Positions 42,394-46,366 of a stretch of DNA of 46,366 bases are shown one piece after another. Each line of letters opens with the position of its first letter. Within the stretch, counting starts at the first letter, position 1. The position numbers were made by a program, and so were the translations under genes. The notes under the pieces were generated by a model. That model was given only the letters and a program-made list of their open reading frames with translations. It was not told the DNA's origin and did no database searches. The DNA comes from Bdellovibrio sp. (lineage in GTDB: Bacteria; Myxococcota; SpSt-1050), in the NCBI GenBank assembly GCA_020725805.1, contig DYEF01000069.1, positions 1 to 46,366 on the forward strand, in the 5' to 3' direction.

Positions 42394-42507
42394 CTACTTC
42401 TTCTCTTTCTGAACCTTTATGGCACAATACGGACCGCACATTGTGCAGACGTCCTCTTCTTCCTTAGGGAGTGCCTTCTCCCTGAACATCTTAATCCAAT
42501 TACCAAT
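42394..42507 (-). pseudogene. thiC: Relic of the 3' end of thiC
   Basis: About 37 codons on the minus strand read IGNWIKMFREKALPKEE then EDVCTMCGPYCAIKVQKEKK and a stop at 42394-42396. The Cys cluster near the C-terminus, embedded in CTMCGxxCAIK, is that of the 4Fe-4S radical-SAM site of phosphomethylpyrimidine synthase (ThiC), which makes the HMP part of thiamine. The rest of the gene is absent: an in-frame stop (TAA) lies just upstream, and the end of a Rhs-array gene overlaps the boundary. Cannot be functional. Identification rests on one motif region. Confidence 0.68.
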
Positions 42508-42509
42508 GC

Positions 42510-42941
42510 CTAAAGATTATTCTTATCTATTTCTCTACTTTTTTCCTCTCCTCCACCTACCCCTTCCTTACACTGAACCTCTTCCTCTCTAATTTCGTAT
42601 ATCAAATAAATAAGAGGAAAAATAAAAACTGATGTTAACCCATAAATAAATATATTCTTTCTGCATTTATACGCCAGTACGCTTCCAACAGGTATAAGAA
42701 ACATCCCAAGCATTACTAGCGTATAAACCAGATATTCATATCTACCGCCACTAAAAGTATTAAGTAAGTTCTTATTAAACATAAAACTAAATCTCAAAAA
42801 CTCATAGAATGAGGGATTACCGCCAATCATTCTTGTATAATTTATAAATCCCAGAGTTTGCCCTACAATTACAAACAGGATAAATGGAATAAGATCTTTT
42901 AAGATTCTAAAAAATATTTCTTTATTCCTTATCGAGATCAT
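42510..42941 (-). CDS. Four-span membrane protein, putative immunity protein of Rhs tip 3
   Basis: About 143 aa from the ATG at 42941 (an in-frame ATG at 42998 would overlap the previous gene by 77 bp). Hydrophobic segments lie at about 13-33, 65-80, 85-102 and 106-120, and the C-terminus is polar and charged. No family recognised. It is the second gene after the array's third Rhs tip, and its start overlaps the zinc-ribbon gene's end by 20 bp. AT-rich codon use as in the whole array. Immunity or accessory role is inferred from position only. Confidence 0.6.
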   Translation of the reverse strand: MISIRNKEIFFRILKDLIPFILFVIVGQTLGFINYTRMIGGNPSFYEFLRFSFMFNKNLLNTFSGGRYEYLVYTLVMLGMFLIPVGSVLAYKCRKNIFIYGLTSVFIFPLIYLIYEIREEEVQCKEGVGGGEEKSREIDKNNL

Positions 42942-43269
42942 ATCCACATACCCCACATTTCTTGGATATTTGAAAATTTGTCGGGAACACATAATCAAAT
43001 CCTAAAAATTTCACTTTAGTATAACCTATCAATCTTTTTTTACACTTTGGACACCTCAGCCCTTTCTCCTTAAATTTAGGCGGTAAAAAATATTCCATAG
43101 TATAGTAGGAAGAAATGAAGATACCCAAAACAATTGCAACATATAAGAAGAAATATTCTTCTATAACCGGAATATTGTTAAAAACTAAAAAAAGAATTAT
43201 AAGTGTAACAACTAACCATAAAGGAAAAATTGCAAATTCTTTAATAATGCTTCTTTTCCATAATGTCAT
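42922..43269 (-). CDS. Two-span membrane protein with C-terminal zinc ribbon
   Basis: A 115-aa protein with two membrane spans (about 13-30 and 40-58) and a C-terminal zinc-ribbon pattern RCPKCKKR ... KKCGVCGYDL (two CxxC pairs about 29 residues apart). It begins 17 bp after the stop of Rhs tip 3, the position normally held by the immunity gene. No named family recognised; the ribbon is reminiscent of small regulators or structural zinc sites. Confidence 0.65.
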   Translation of the reverse strand: MTLWKRSIIKEFAIFPLWLVVTLIILFLVFNNIPVIEEYFFLYVAIVLGIFISSYYTMEYFLPPKFKEKGLRCPKCKKRLIGYTKVKFLGFDYVFPTNFQISKKCGVCGYDLDKE

Positions 43270-43286
43270 AGCAAATATTTATTCCC

Positions 43287-43898
43287 TCACTTGAAAAAAT
43301 TAATAATATCCTCAACTGTCAATATTGTCTCCGTATATGAAGCACCAGAAGATGCACCAAAGCCTAATCCTTTTGACCCAGCCACTGTGAAACCTTTATC
43401 ACTACCCACGCCTAAGGTTACAGATGCCCCACTGAAGATAAAAGGCGGAAAATTAATATCAAAATTTTCGCTAAATCCCTCAATATCCTTTGTACAAAGC
43501 CCACCACCCCATCCGATACCTATATTCAGTCCACCGGCTAATGATGCCGTCCTGAAAATACCTGATTCAAAAGGATGGTCTGTATCAATAACCAACCCCA
43601 AAGCACCCTCTGCCCCCAAGAAAGGCACAAAATCAAATTCAAAGAACACAAATATATCTACTAGCCCCAGAGGATCAACTTTATTCACCCCATTATTATT
43701 CACATACATATAAGGATGCAGGAGACTGGGGTCTGCAAAATGAAATCTTTTTGCCTTTCCTTTTGCTATCATATCACTGTATAACGGATCAGGTTGTATA
43801 TACCTCTTTAATATTGTATTGTAAAACCGATTAACATTATACCTTCCTGCACTCACTTTTACTAGGACCAAATACATTAAGCCAAAGACAATCTCCAT
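43287..43898 (-). CDS. Rhs C-terminal tip 3 (core remnant plus variable region)
   Basis: A 203-aa orphan Rhs tip. Residues 16-79 are the conserved core (SAGRYNVNRFYNTILKRY, QPDPLYSDMIA, ADPSLLHPYMYVNNN, ending VNKVDPLGL). The 124 residues beyond the core are Gly-rich and strand-like (GGLNIGIGWGGGL, GASVTLGVGSDKGFTVAG) with no nuclease or protease motif that I can see. The upstream Rhs repeats and an export sequence are absent: the frame opens only 20 bp after the previous gene stop, and the first 15 residues do not match the other copies. The product may be a stored toxin domain that needs recombination into a full-length rhs gene to be delivered. Confidence 0.75.
   Translation of the reverse strand: MEIVFGLMYLVLVKVSAGRYNVNRFYNTILKRYIQPDPLYSDMIAKGKAKRFHFADPSLLHPYMYVNNNGVNKVDPLGLVDIFVFFEFDFVPFLGAEGALGLVIDTDHPFESGIFRTASLAGGLNIGIGWGGGLCTKDIEGFSENFDINFPPFIFSGASVTLGVGSDKGFTVAGSKGLGFGASSGASYTETILTVEDIINFFK
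43662..43853 (-). repeat. Rhs core repeat, copy 3
   Basis: DNA coding the shared Rhs core. The stretch 43691-43739 (49 bases) is identical to 46318-46366 in copy 1, while the DPLGL end diverges from both other copies. Confidence 0.85.
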
Positions 43899-43918
43899 CC
43901 ATTAATACTAGTATTTAT

Positions 43919-44242
43919 TCATTTCCTGTCCTTAACAATGTAAGAAAGTATCAAATAGGCATACAAATTTCCGTAAAAACATATTATTGCCCATATAAAT
44001 GGATTCCTACCTTTTTCCCTTGCCTTGAAAAATCCTAAAACACCGAATAGTGTTAGGCCACCAGATAGAAATACCGGAACAACTAAACGAACAATTAGTG
44101 GTTTTGTTAATTTGGCACCGTTTGATAACTCTATAATTGCAGATCTCAAAATTTTTGAAGATTCAATATAAACAAACAATATCAAATATATTGCTATCGT
44201 TAATACTAATGCTATTGCAATCTTTTTAACAATCGCTCTCAT
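43919..44242 (-). CDS. Three-span membrane protein, second gene after Rhs tip 2
   Basis: A 107-aa protein with three hydrophobic segments (about 8-27, 48-68, 82-100). Its C-terminal half, GFFKAREKGRNPFIWAIICF, parallels GYIKAKKKGYNPWLWFLICI in the 78-aa protein 2 bp upstream, so the two are diverged paralogues. Both follow a Rhs tip, in the place where immunity genes lie. Function beyond that is unknown. Confidence 0.65.
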   Translation of the reverse strand: MRAIVKKIAIALVLTIAIYLILFVYIESSKILRSAIIELSNGAKLTKPLIVRLVVPVFLSGGLTLFGVLGFFKAREKGRNPFIWAIICFYGNLYAYLILSYIVKDRK

Positions 44243-44244
44243 TC

Positions 44245-44481
44245 TTATTTATCCACAATTTTATTTTCCTGTTTTTCAGGAATGTAATATAACAACAAAC
44301 AAGCCATCCAATTACCAAATATACAAATTAAAAACCAAAGCCATGGATTATAACCTTTTTTCTTTGCTTTTATGTAACCATAAATGCCAAAAGGAAATGT
44401 GCCAATCAGCAGCAGAGAAATAACCTGAATAACAGTTATAAAATTAGCATACTCAAAAAAGCTACAAAGTGCGTTCATCAC
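44245..44481 (-). CDS. Two-span membrane protein, first gene after Rhs tip 2
   Basis: A 78-aa protein with two hydrophobic segments (about 15-35 and 47-66) around a basic loop, KAKKKGYNPW. It starts 10 bp after the Rhs tip stop and 2 bp before its paralogue. Candidate immunity protein against a membrane-active toxin, by position and topology. Confidence 0.65.
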   Translation of the reverse strand: MMNALCSFFEYANFITVIQVISLLLIGTFPFGIYGYIKAKKKGYNPWLWFLICIFGNWMACLLLYYIPEKQENKIVDK

Positions 44482-44491
44482 TTTTTATCTC

Positions 44492-45025
44492 CTATCTCTG
44501 ATTACTTGAGGTATAATTAATATAAAACGGGAATAAACTCCAACCAAGCCCGATGTGAGCAGAAAATCCAAACTTCTCCATCATCCCAGACCAATGAGGT
44601 TTAGAAAAAAATACACCAGCCGCAAGAAATCTACTATAACCAACTCCAAATTCAACTGATGCTTCATCTTCATCAGGCAAAAAGCCTATACTTATATCCA
44701 AACAAGCTCCTACACTAGGCGTCGAAGATAATATTTTATAATTACTAACAACACCTCCTCCTTCAACCAGAAATTGATATGAAAATGAAACAGATAAATA
44801 AGTCCGAGGATCCCACCAATCTCCTTTTGCAAGTCCCTCAGGGTCTATCCAATTCACCGCATTATTATTTACATACATATAGGGATGCAAGAGATTTGGG
44901 TCTGCAAAATGAAATCTATTAGCCTTTCTCATTGCTATCATATCACTATACAACGGATCTGGCTGCATATATCTCTTTAACTCACGATTATAAAATCTGT
45001 TTACATTATATATTCCTGCACTCAT
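44492..45025 (-). CDS. Rhs C-terminal tip 2 (core remnant plus variable region)
   Basis: A 177-aa tip starting at an ATG inside the Rhs core (SAGIYNVNRFYNRELKRYM to NAVNWIDPEGL, residues 2-65). The reading frame stays open for a further 57 codons upstream to 45196 and encodes more Rhs-like sequence (GYKVSRYEYQNINSQEINL, then RAPGQVE), with no start codon, so the ancestral protein was longer. The variable part (112 aa) is aromatic and strand-like (YLSVSFSYQFLVEGGG, ASVEFGVGYSRFLAAGVFF, GFSAHIGLGWSLFPFYINY), reminiscent of short barrel or pore strands. No catalytic motif seen. Translation from 45025 would need the weak AGGTAGAG just upstream. Confidence 0.72.
   Translation of the reverse strand: MSAGIYNVNRFYNRELKRYMQPDPLYSDMIAMRKANRFHFADPNLLHPYMYVNNNAVNWIDPEGLAKGDWWDPRTYLSVSFSYQFLVEGGGVVSNYKILSSTPSVGACLDISIGFLPDEDEASVEFGVGYSRFLAAGVFFSKPHWSGMMEKFGFSAHIGLGWSLFPFYINYTSSNQR
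44831..45022 (-). repeat. Rhs core repeat, copy 2
   Basis: Shared Rhs core DNA. The stretch 44830-44869 (40 bases) is identical to 46288-46327 in copy 1, whereas the adjoining bases differ from copies 1 and 3 at several sites. Confidence 0.85.
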
Positions 45026-45196
45026 CTCTACCTGCCCGGGTGCCCTTATTGGCAGATTTATCTCCTGACTATTAATATTCTGATACTCATACCTACTTAC
45101 CTTATATCCATAACTACTACCACTATAATCCGAACCACAACAAACTTCAAGTGAAACAAAACGCTGGAAATATACAACAAATTTCTTTATAAATCC

Positions 45197-45482
45197 TTAA
45201 TAAGCAAAATTAAAATGTTAACAGTGTTTTATTTTCATTATTCTTTTTATTCCCAGAATATATAAAAAAATGAGTTCTTCATTGATTTTTCTTTTGTATC
45301 TTATGTACACTTTTCGACCTCTTTATCAATATTAAACCTTTCCATAGATACCTCTACCTTAAATTTCTTATACCCTTACACAATATCACTGCTTCTATTT
45401 ATATAATAATTTTATCAAATTACTTATCCTCCTATATCCCTTAACATAAAATAGATAGATGTATAAAAACTAAAAGTATCTA
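45197..45482. other. AT-rich spacer within the Rhs array
   Basis: 286 bases with no gene that I can support, between the stop that bounds the open core frame of tip 2 and the end of the HEIGHH-protein gene. Very AT-rich. Minus-strand fragments such as KKFKVEVSMERFN end after about 24 codons and may be debris of an earlier cassette. Confidence 0.5.
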
Positions 45483-45995
45483 TTACGTCTTAATTGGCTG
45501 CTTGTCTTTCCTTGAATAAAAATATAGAGCCAGTTTTACCAATGGATAAAATGGAATTAATAAAATCCCCCAAAGCAAAAATGCTTTTTTTAACAGCTTC
45601 TCTTTATATTTCTCCGCAAAATCCTCTTCATAGTCTCTCTTTATCCCGTGAGTTGAAAATTGACAATGATGTCCTATTTCATGATATAAAACCCCTGCAA
45701 TTAAAATATCTGGTATAAATGGAAGATAAAACAATAAGCGGGGCATTCCTTTGTAAATATCTCCTACAGCAATCATAATCTTTGCCAATCCTCCCCCCTT
45801 TTTTGGAATATAAATCCCCCCTCTTACTTTATTCATTTTGTTATCTCTCGATGATGTATATACTCTATCAACCAATACAATCGTTCCTATTCCAACAAGA
45901 TCCTTCTCTGGAACTTTTAATAAAAGTCTTTTAATTAATCTTTCTAATGATATGGGGAAGTTTTCCTTATACTCTTTCTTAATTATAATATCCAT
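45483..45995 (-). CDS. HEIGHH metallopeptidase-like membrane protein after Rhs tip 1
   Basis: A 170-aa protein with a zincin motif YHEIGHH (His105, Glu106, His109) and, about 15-20 residues on, an acidic helix DYEEDFAEKY that could give the third zinc ligand (Glu124 or Glu128). One or two hydrophobic segments flank it: about 86-103 (LLFYLPFIPDILIAGVLY) and 138-160. It starts 5 bp after the Rhs tip 1 stop. It may be an effector, a processing protease or an immunity protein; the order in the array favours a partner of the tip. No named family recognised. Confidence 0.65.
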   Translation of the reverse strand: MDIIIKKEYKENFPISLERLIKRLLLKVPEKDLVGIGTIVLVDRVYTSSRDNKMNKVRGGIYIPKKGGGLAKIMIAVGDIYKGMPRLLFYLPFIPDILIAGVLYHEIGHHCQFSTHGIKRDYEEDFAEKYKEKLLKKAFLLWGILLIPFYPLVKLALYFYSRKDKQPIKT

Positions 45996-46000
45996 TTTGC

Positions 46001-46366
46001 TTATGCTCTAAATGGATCAAATATTATATCTGACTCATTCTCGGTTGAGATAAAAATTGAACCAAATCCAAGTGACCTAAGCAAAGACGCAATATTTTTT
46101 AAAAGATTTTTCAACAATTCATTCTCTATTAAGGGTCCTTTAGGTGGCCAAGGTTCTATACTAGCTTTAGGGAAAGAAGGAGTCTGCTTAGGCAGACACT
46201 GCGGAGTATATCTTTGACTGGGGGCAAGTCTATTAACACCAGCATAAGGTCTGAAGAAAAAAGGGAGCCTTCCAAAAAGAAATATCTCAAGTCCCTCAGG
46301 GTCTATCCAATTCACCGCATTATTATTCACATACATATAAGGATGCAGGAGACTGGGGTCTGCAAA
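46001..46366 (-). CDS. Rhs C-terminal tip 1, partial at window edge
   Basis: Open at the right edge, so the 5' part is missing. The visible 121 codons begin FADPSLLHPYMYVNNNAVNW then IDPEGL, the end of the Rhs core, followed by a 95-aa variable region. That region has a Pro-rich middle (PKQTPSFPKASIEPWPPKGP) and an amphipathic helix (ENELLKNLLKNIASLLRSLG). No known toxin motif. This may be the tip of a full-length rhs gene or a further orphan tip; the window cannot tell. Confidence 0.75.
   Translation of the reverse strand, partial: FADPSLLHPYMYVNNNAVNWIDPEGLEIFLFGRLPFFFRPYAGVNRLAPSQRYTPQCLPKQTPSFPKASIEPWPPKGPLIENELLKNLLKNIASLLRSLGFGSIFISTENESDIIFDPFRA
46289..46366 (-). repeat. Rhs core repeat, copy 1 (partial)
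   Basis: Shared Rhs core DNA truncated by the window edge. Its left part equals copy 2 and its right part equals copy 3 without mismatch, with the switch inside CATTATTATT (46318-46327). Confidence 0.85.

Follow-up and report, generated by a model that had tools for sequence, protein, structure and literature searches.

A probable store of three Rhs toxin tips and their likely immunity genes in a tandem array at a contig end

What are three tandem copies of an Rhs core doing in the last 4 kb of a contig, and what do the small genes that follow them encode? The window, by which we mean the whole stretch of DNA analysed, is the entire contig C65 (46366 bp) of a 3.29-Mb draft genome that comprises 115 contigs and is 97.9% complete. 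The array consists of three stored Rhs tips, putative toxins, with likely immunity genes, a kind of store that is already known. More specifically, we consider it very probable that orphan rhs-CT/rhsI modules make up the C65 stretch, their toxin tips and immunity genes being stored in tandem downstream of an Rhs gene that falls in an assembly gap.

Each module has the same layout, a core ending in DPxGL followed by a tip and then by one or two small genes (Table 1), and all cores, tips and partners lie on the minus strand. There are five partner genes in all (p1, p2a, p2b, p3a and p3b), and the first partner starts 5, 10 and 17 nt after the tip stop in modules 1, 2 and 3, respectively. The G+C content of the array is 33.5%, compared with 44% (0.440) for the remaining window, where the minimum among other 3973-bp stretches is 39.1%. 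The first-pass annotation, which described three copies of one core with unrelated C-termini and small genes after them, AT-rich and on the minus strand, was confirmed by matches to the TIGR03696 profile, by identity that stops at DPxGL and by the G+C content. Its left boundary for the array, 42394, is corrected here to ~42510, as the sequence from 42394 to ~42480 is the end of thiC. A promoter scan found no excess over shuffled sequences (14 found, 18.1 expected), and we therefore claim no promoter.

Table 1. Features of the array and its left neighbour; coordinates are positions in the window.
Feature	Coordinates	Strand	Basis and remarks
thiC 3' stub, ~28 codons, ending in EDVCTMCGPYCAIKVQKEKK and the stop	42394..42480	-	Aligns to intact thiC of congener G001; left neighbour, outside the array
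Partner 3b (p3b), about 143-162 aa, three TM segments	42510..42998	-	ORF overlapping p3a; hydropathy
Partner 3a (p3a), 115 aa, two TM segments and a CxxC...CxxC zinc-ribbon-like tail	42922..43269	-	ORF beginning 17 nt past the stop of tip 3; hydropathy
Tip 3, 124 aa, glycine/beta-rich	43287..43661	-	ORF; no family
Rhs core 3, ending DPLGL	43662..43898	-	TIGR03696, 34.5 bits, E 2.2e-8; ORF from ATG 43898
Partner 2b (p2b), 107 aa, three TM segments	43919..44242	-	Starts +2 nt after p2a; hydropathy
Partner 2a (p2a), 78 aa, two TM segments	44245..44481	-	GTG start, 10 nt past the stop of tip 2; GGAG upstream; hydropathy
Tip 2, 112 aa, beta-rich, glycine-rich	44492..44830	-	ORF
Rhs core 2 and upstream remnant (GYKVSRYEYQNIN...DPEGL)	44831..45109	-	TIGR03696, 41.3 bits, E 1.6e-10
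Decayed copy of multicopy repeat, between modules 1 and 2	about 45164..45360	-	74% match to C37, aligned
Partner 1 (p1), 170 aa	45483..45995	-	ORF beginning 5 nt past the stop of tip 1
Tip 1, 95 aa, proline-rich	46001..46288	-	Open frame continuing from core 1
Rhs core 1, 3' end only (FADPSLLHPYMYVNNNAVNWIDPEGL)	46289..46366	-	Cut by contig end; TIGR03696 positions 57-76

Cores 2 and 3 exceed the curated TIGR03696 cut-off of 32.5 bits, and core 1, a copy truncated by the contig end, reached 22 bits (E 1.7e-4) in the profile search. The homologous parts of cores 2 and 3 (45031-44831 and 43862-43662) are 79% identical across 200 nt, core 1 shares 94% identity with core 2 across 79 nt, and the 79-nt stretch common to all three cores is conserved at 80-94% identity, far above chance. 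Similarity stops at the terminal motif, which is DPEGL in cores 1 and 2 and DPLGL in core 3, and beyond it the three tips are mutually unrelated. The published form of this boundary is PxxxxDPxGL; in the C65 cores, the P five residues ahead of the D is A or G. The C65 core has no match in the congener G001.

The observation that the tips lack nuclease, deaminase and ADP-ribosyltransferase motifs holds as far as the Pfam and NCBIfam searches reach, as no curated toxin domain from either collection was found in the C65 tips even at E up to 10. No significant relatives of the tips or partners were found in 195 genomes of the phylum (using a concatenated query, with tip 3 also searched alone), and neither a query comprising core and tip 2 nor a query with p1 returned anything significant from the genomes of 85,000 species. 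Viral contigs and plasmids likewise contained no significant relatives of the queried tips and partners (p1 and tip 2 among them), and searches of phages and of PDB sequences with p1 yielded nothing significant. Tip 3 had weak matches in the 195 phylum genomes (E 0.006 and worse); among the loci inspected, none follows a DPxGL core, and for this reason the matches were treated as chance. Because the C65 tips and partners have no significant relatives in the collections searched, we infer the chemistry of the toxins only indirectly, and no C65 tip or partner can be linked by homology to a proven toxin, which counts against our main reading.

The rest of the genome provides evidence of a different kind. 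TIGR03696 also matches contigs C64 (four cores), C69 (three) and C44 (one), with fragments on C20 and C15. These other Rhs arrays contain a second core type in the same layout, and all are located at or near contig ends. G+C content is low in every array (29-34%, versus 44-48% around them). One tip family, containing HEIAHA, is shared between C44 and C69 (tip 3 of the latter; 45% identity, z=43), and the corresponding partners are related at z=6.5. Another is shared between C64 and tip 1 of C69 (35% identity, z=14), with partners related at z=3.7. These two partner matches are the top non-tandem pairs in a comparison of all partners, the C64/C69 match being weak, as the non-cognate membrane pair p2b/p3a reaches z=3.6. 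Sequence comparison thus supports the view that tips and partners have been inherited together between arrays, which would be a signature of toxin/immunity modules; the co-inheritance is seen in the C44, C64 and C69 arrays, not in C65 itself. The earlier proposal that C65 holds a store of displaced tips and immunity genes is strengthened by these findings, since in at least two further arrays of the genome, homologous tips are accompanied by partners that are themselves homologous.

The tips of the HEIAHA family (L022:292-600 on C44 and L021:5559-5879 on C69) are cysteine-rich, with 11 Cys in 105 aa and a zincin-like motif, and their related partners are 341-350 aa long with a signal-like N-terminus. 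Most tips of the second core type on C64 (L020) and C69 (L021) contain many cysteines (8-13 Cys in 70-126 aa), compared with 1 Cys in each of the C65 tips. At the end of C15 (L026:3871-4383), a glycine-rich tip is accompanied by a 75-aa partner with two TM segments; it is weakly similar to tip 2 (z=3.7) and tip 3 (z=2.7).

In module 1, we propose that tip 1 is a toxin tip or a remnant of one and that p1 is an immunity or accessory protein. The partners had been described as small membrane proteins, and all five indeed have at least one predicted hydrophobic segment (in p1, near residues 87-105 and 139-157 by hydropathy); the description is amended in that p1 also carries a zincin-like motif, HEIGHH...EEDFAE. 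Its only match in Pfam is DUF6782, at an E-value of 0.35, and a peptidase fold is possible, as a guess at the level of the motif. Tentatively, we favour p1 as a membrane-anchored immunity or processing protein, perhaps with a zinc-protease fold, an assignment we regard as slightly less likely than not. In a variant of the main reading, the roles are reversed or shared; p1 would then be the metallopeptidase toxin, or a processing enzyme, and tip 1 no more than a segment for targeting or chaperoning. This arrangement would account for the HExxH in p1, and the zincin-like HEIAHA motifs in genuine tips of C44 and C69 suggest that the lineage uses peptidase-like tips; p1, however, is separate from the core and occupies precisely the place of an immunity gene, it has no match among peptidase families, and its single-sequence structure model failed (pLDDT 45, uninformative), so we consider the role swap unlikely.

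We propose that tips 2 and 3 are membrane-acting toxin tips and that p2a is an immunity protein. Both tips are glycine-rich and beta-rich and contain no enzyme motifs. The partners, with two or three predicted TM segments each, are small integral membrane proteins and would be able to block a toxin within the membrane. These features are the basis for a membrane mode of action, and we give an even chance to the idea that tips 2 and 3 permeabilise or insert into the target membrane. The beta-strand hydrophobic moments are z=2.2 for tip 2 and z=1.4 for tip 3, values that are modest and not proof of strands. Tip 2 has no TM helix and, by hydropathy, a hydrophobic helix of 19 residues, the feature sought for a helical CDI-type ionophore, is absent from tips 1-3. 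Structure prediction for core 3 with tip 3, made without an alignment, was uninformative (pLDDT 31). The two partners of tip 2 are 51% identical over 37 aa (shuffle z=21), making them tandem diverged paralogues behind one tip (43919-44481), which suggests that p2b may be a duplicated immunity gene. A bolder proposal, and in our estimation quite an improbable one, is that tips 2 and 3 and the C15 tip constitute a class of Rhs toxins not described before, rich in beta structure and glycine, which would permeabilise membranes and be neutralised by small helical membrane proteins, and that p1 is a membrane-anchored metallopeptidase that would confer immunity by cleaving tip 1.

The first-pass annotation had also predicted a full-length rhs gene to the right of the array. 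C65 breaks within core 1, in sequence nearly identical to core 3, and a contig end inside a near-identical core copy is expected of a repeat-induced assembly break. Because the contig ends there, the predicted upstream gene cannot be seen, and because all Rhs arrays of this genome sit at contig edges, an assembly gap is the likely location of a full-length rhs gene. RHS_repeat (PF05593) and TEN_YD-shell (PF25023) have no match anywhere in the assembly. The part of the prediction that stands is that displaced tip/partner modules are joined at a common core; the full-length gene was not seen, and the absence of such a gene and of RHS repeats from the assembly, which leaves displacement from a parent gene unobserved, weighs against the displacement reading.

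At the left edge, the array adjoins a gene fragment. The order in congener G001 is porin, phosphatase and then, a few bases away, an intact convergent thiC. In C65, only the thiC stub remains at this spacing from the phosphatase gene, with the array next to it. ThiC (PF01964) is present in G001 and G002 and absent from the source genome, and a DNA search of the source genome with the thiC locus of the congener recovered the stub only. On the far side of thiC, the congener has mfd, secA and glyA; in the source genome these genes are on C83, a contig that stops close to the mfd start, in apparent mobile-element sequence. As thiC is missing from the assembly, displacement or truncation of thiC by the array is likelier than the rest of thiC lying in a gap. 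With only a stub and no other thiC in the genome, the source organism may have no HMP-phosphate synthase for making thiamine.

The decayed repeat between modules 1 and 2 belongs to a multicopy family whose end (AAGGATTTATGAAAAATTTTGGGGTATTTCC) occurs at 35 sites in the genome, compared with 0 for a reversed control pattern. Copies of the repeat, ending ...GGATTTATGAAAAATTTTGGGGTATTTCCAG, are mostly near contig ends (C4, C8, C13, C16, C17, C23, C37, C70 and others), and the copies that were read are usually followed within ~10-30 bp by a TTGAC-like -35 box.

The thiC stub and the decayed repeat, together with the short, motif-poor tip of core 1 and the unseen full-length rhs gene, would also be consistent with decayed rhs debris, i.e., dead 3' fragments left by repeated duplication and insertion, with no active store and no function. 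Every tip and partner frame is open, however, spacing is tight, one partner has a good ribosome site, intact pairs are kept in three arrays, and p2 has been duplicated and has diverged, suggesting selection on immunity; we consider debris very unlikely. Hardly credible is the idea that the Rhs-like cores have ordinary, non-toxic C-termini of surface or adhesion proteins and unrelated downstream genes, for although toxin families match none of the tips, the abrupt divergence at DPxGL, the tandem cores and the co-inheritance of tips and partners are marks of polymorphic toxin modules.

Taken together, the core common to the modules, the divergence at DPxGL, the order of tip and then partner, the further arrays and the co-inheritance of tips and partners argue for a toxin/immunity store. 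Toxicity, immunity, recombination and the presence of a full-length rhs gene are what we infer from this reading, and the mechanism follows the precedent of published orphan rhs-CT/rhsI modules (PMC3150448). Recombination at the common core, just ahead of DPxGL, would transfer a stored tip, along with the immunity gene, to the full-length Rhs protein and so change the toxin that this protein delivers, and the stored immunity genes would protect against siblings still using older tips. The gain from this locus is modest because the arrangement is known. What it adds is a lineage that maintains several stores of Rhs tips although it apparently has no T6SS sheath, and whose tips and immunity genes belong to no described family; should the tips prove toxic, they would represent new toxin families. 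The tip/partner pairs that recur between arrays of this one genome offer ready tests of cognate specificity.

Among known systems, the closest to the membrane mode proposed for tips 2 and 3 are the CDI ionophore toxins, whose immunity proteins are 72-100 residues long with two helices and whose ionophore domains are five-helix bundles (PMC11630599), and Tse5, a pore-forming Rhs toxin (PMC9637101, PMC10684867). The small hydrophobic partners in C65 are a feature in common with both, and p2a (78 aa, two segments) resembles the CDI immunity proteins; unlike the five-helix ionophores, tips 2 and 3 lack TM helices and seem rich in beta structure. Ntox25 is a beta-barrel ionophore (PMC11630599), and homology of tips 2 and 3 to it was not found. 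The orphan cdiA-CT/cdiI arrays of E. coli EC869 and EC93 (PMC3150448) are, like C65, tandem stores of tips and immunity genes, some of them interrupted by mobile elements; the C65 core, in contrast, is Rhs rather than CdiA, and there is no VENN motif. The closest counterparts are the orphan rhs-CT/rhsI modules of Dickeya dadantii 3937 and Yersinia (Poole et al. 2011), which encode functional toxins and specific immunity proteins, and whose common core lets a stored module recombine onto a full-length rhs gene (PMC3150448). C65 differs from them in that no full-length rhs gene is seen, the tips and partners are unrelated to any sequence found, the P of PxxxxDPxGL is replaced, and the genome is without a T6SS sheath gene, a lack that also counts against our main reading (PF05943, sought as a sign of T6SS delivery, is absent from both the source genome, G000, which is 97.9% complete, and G001). 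It nevertheless matches them in its core fragments ending in DPxGL, its variable tips, its small downstream partners, its tandem copies and the divergence of its modules exactly at the motif.
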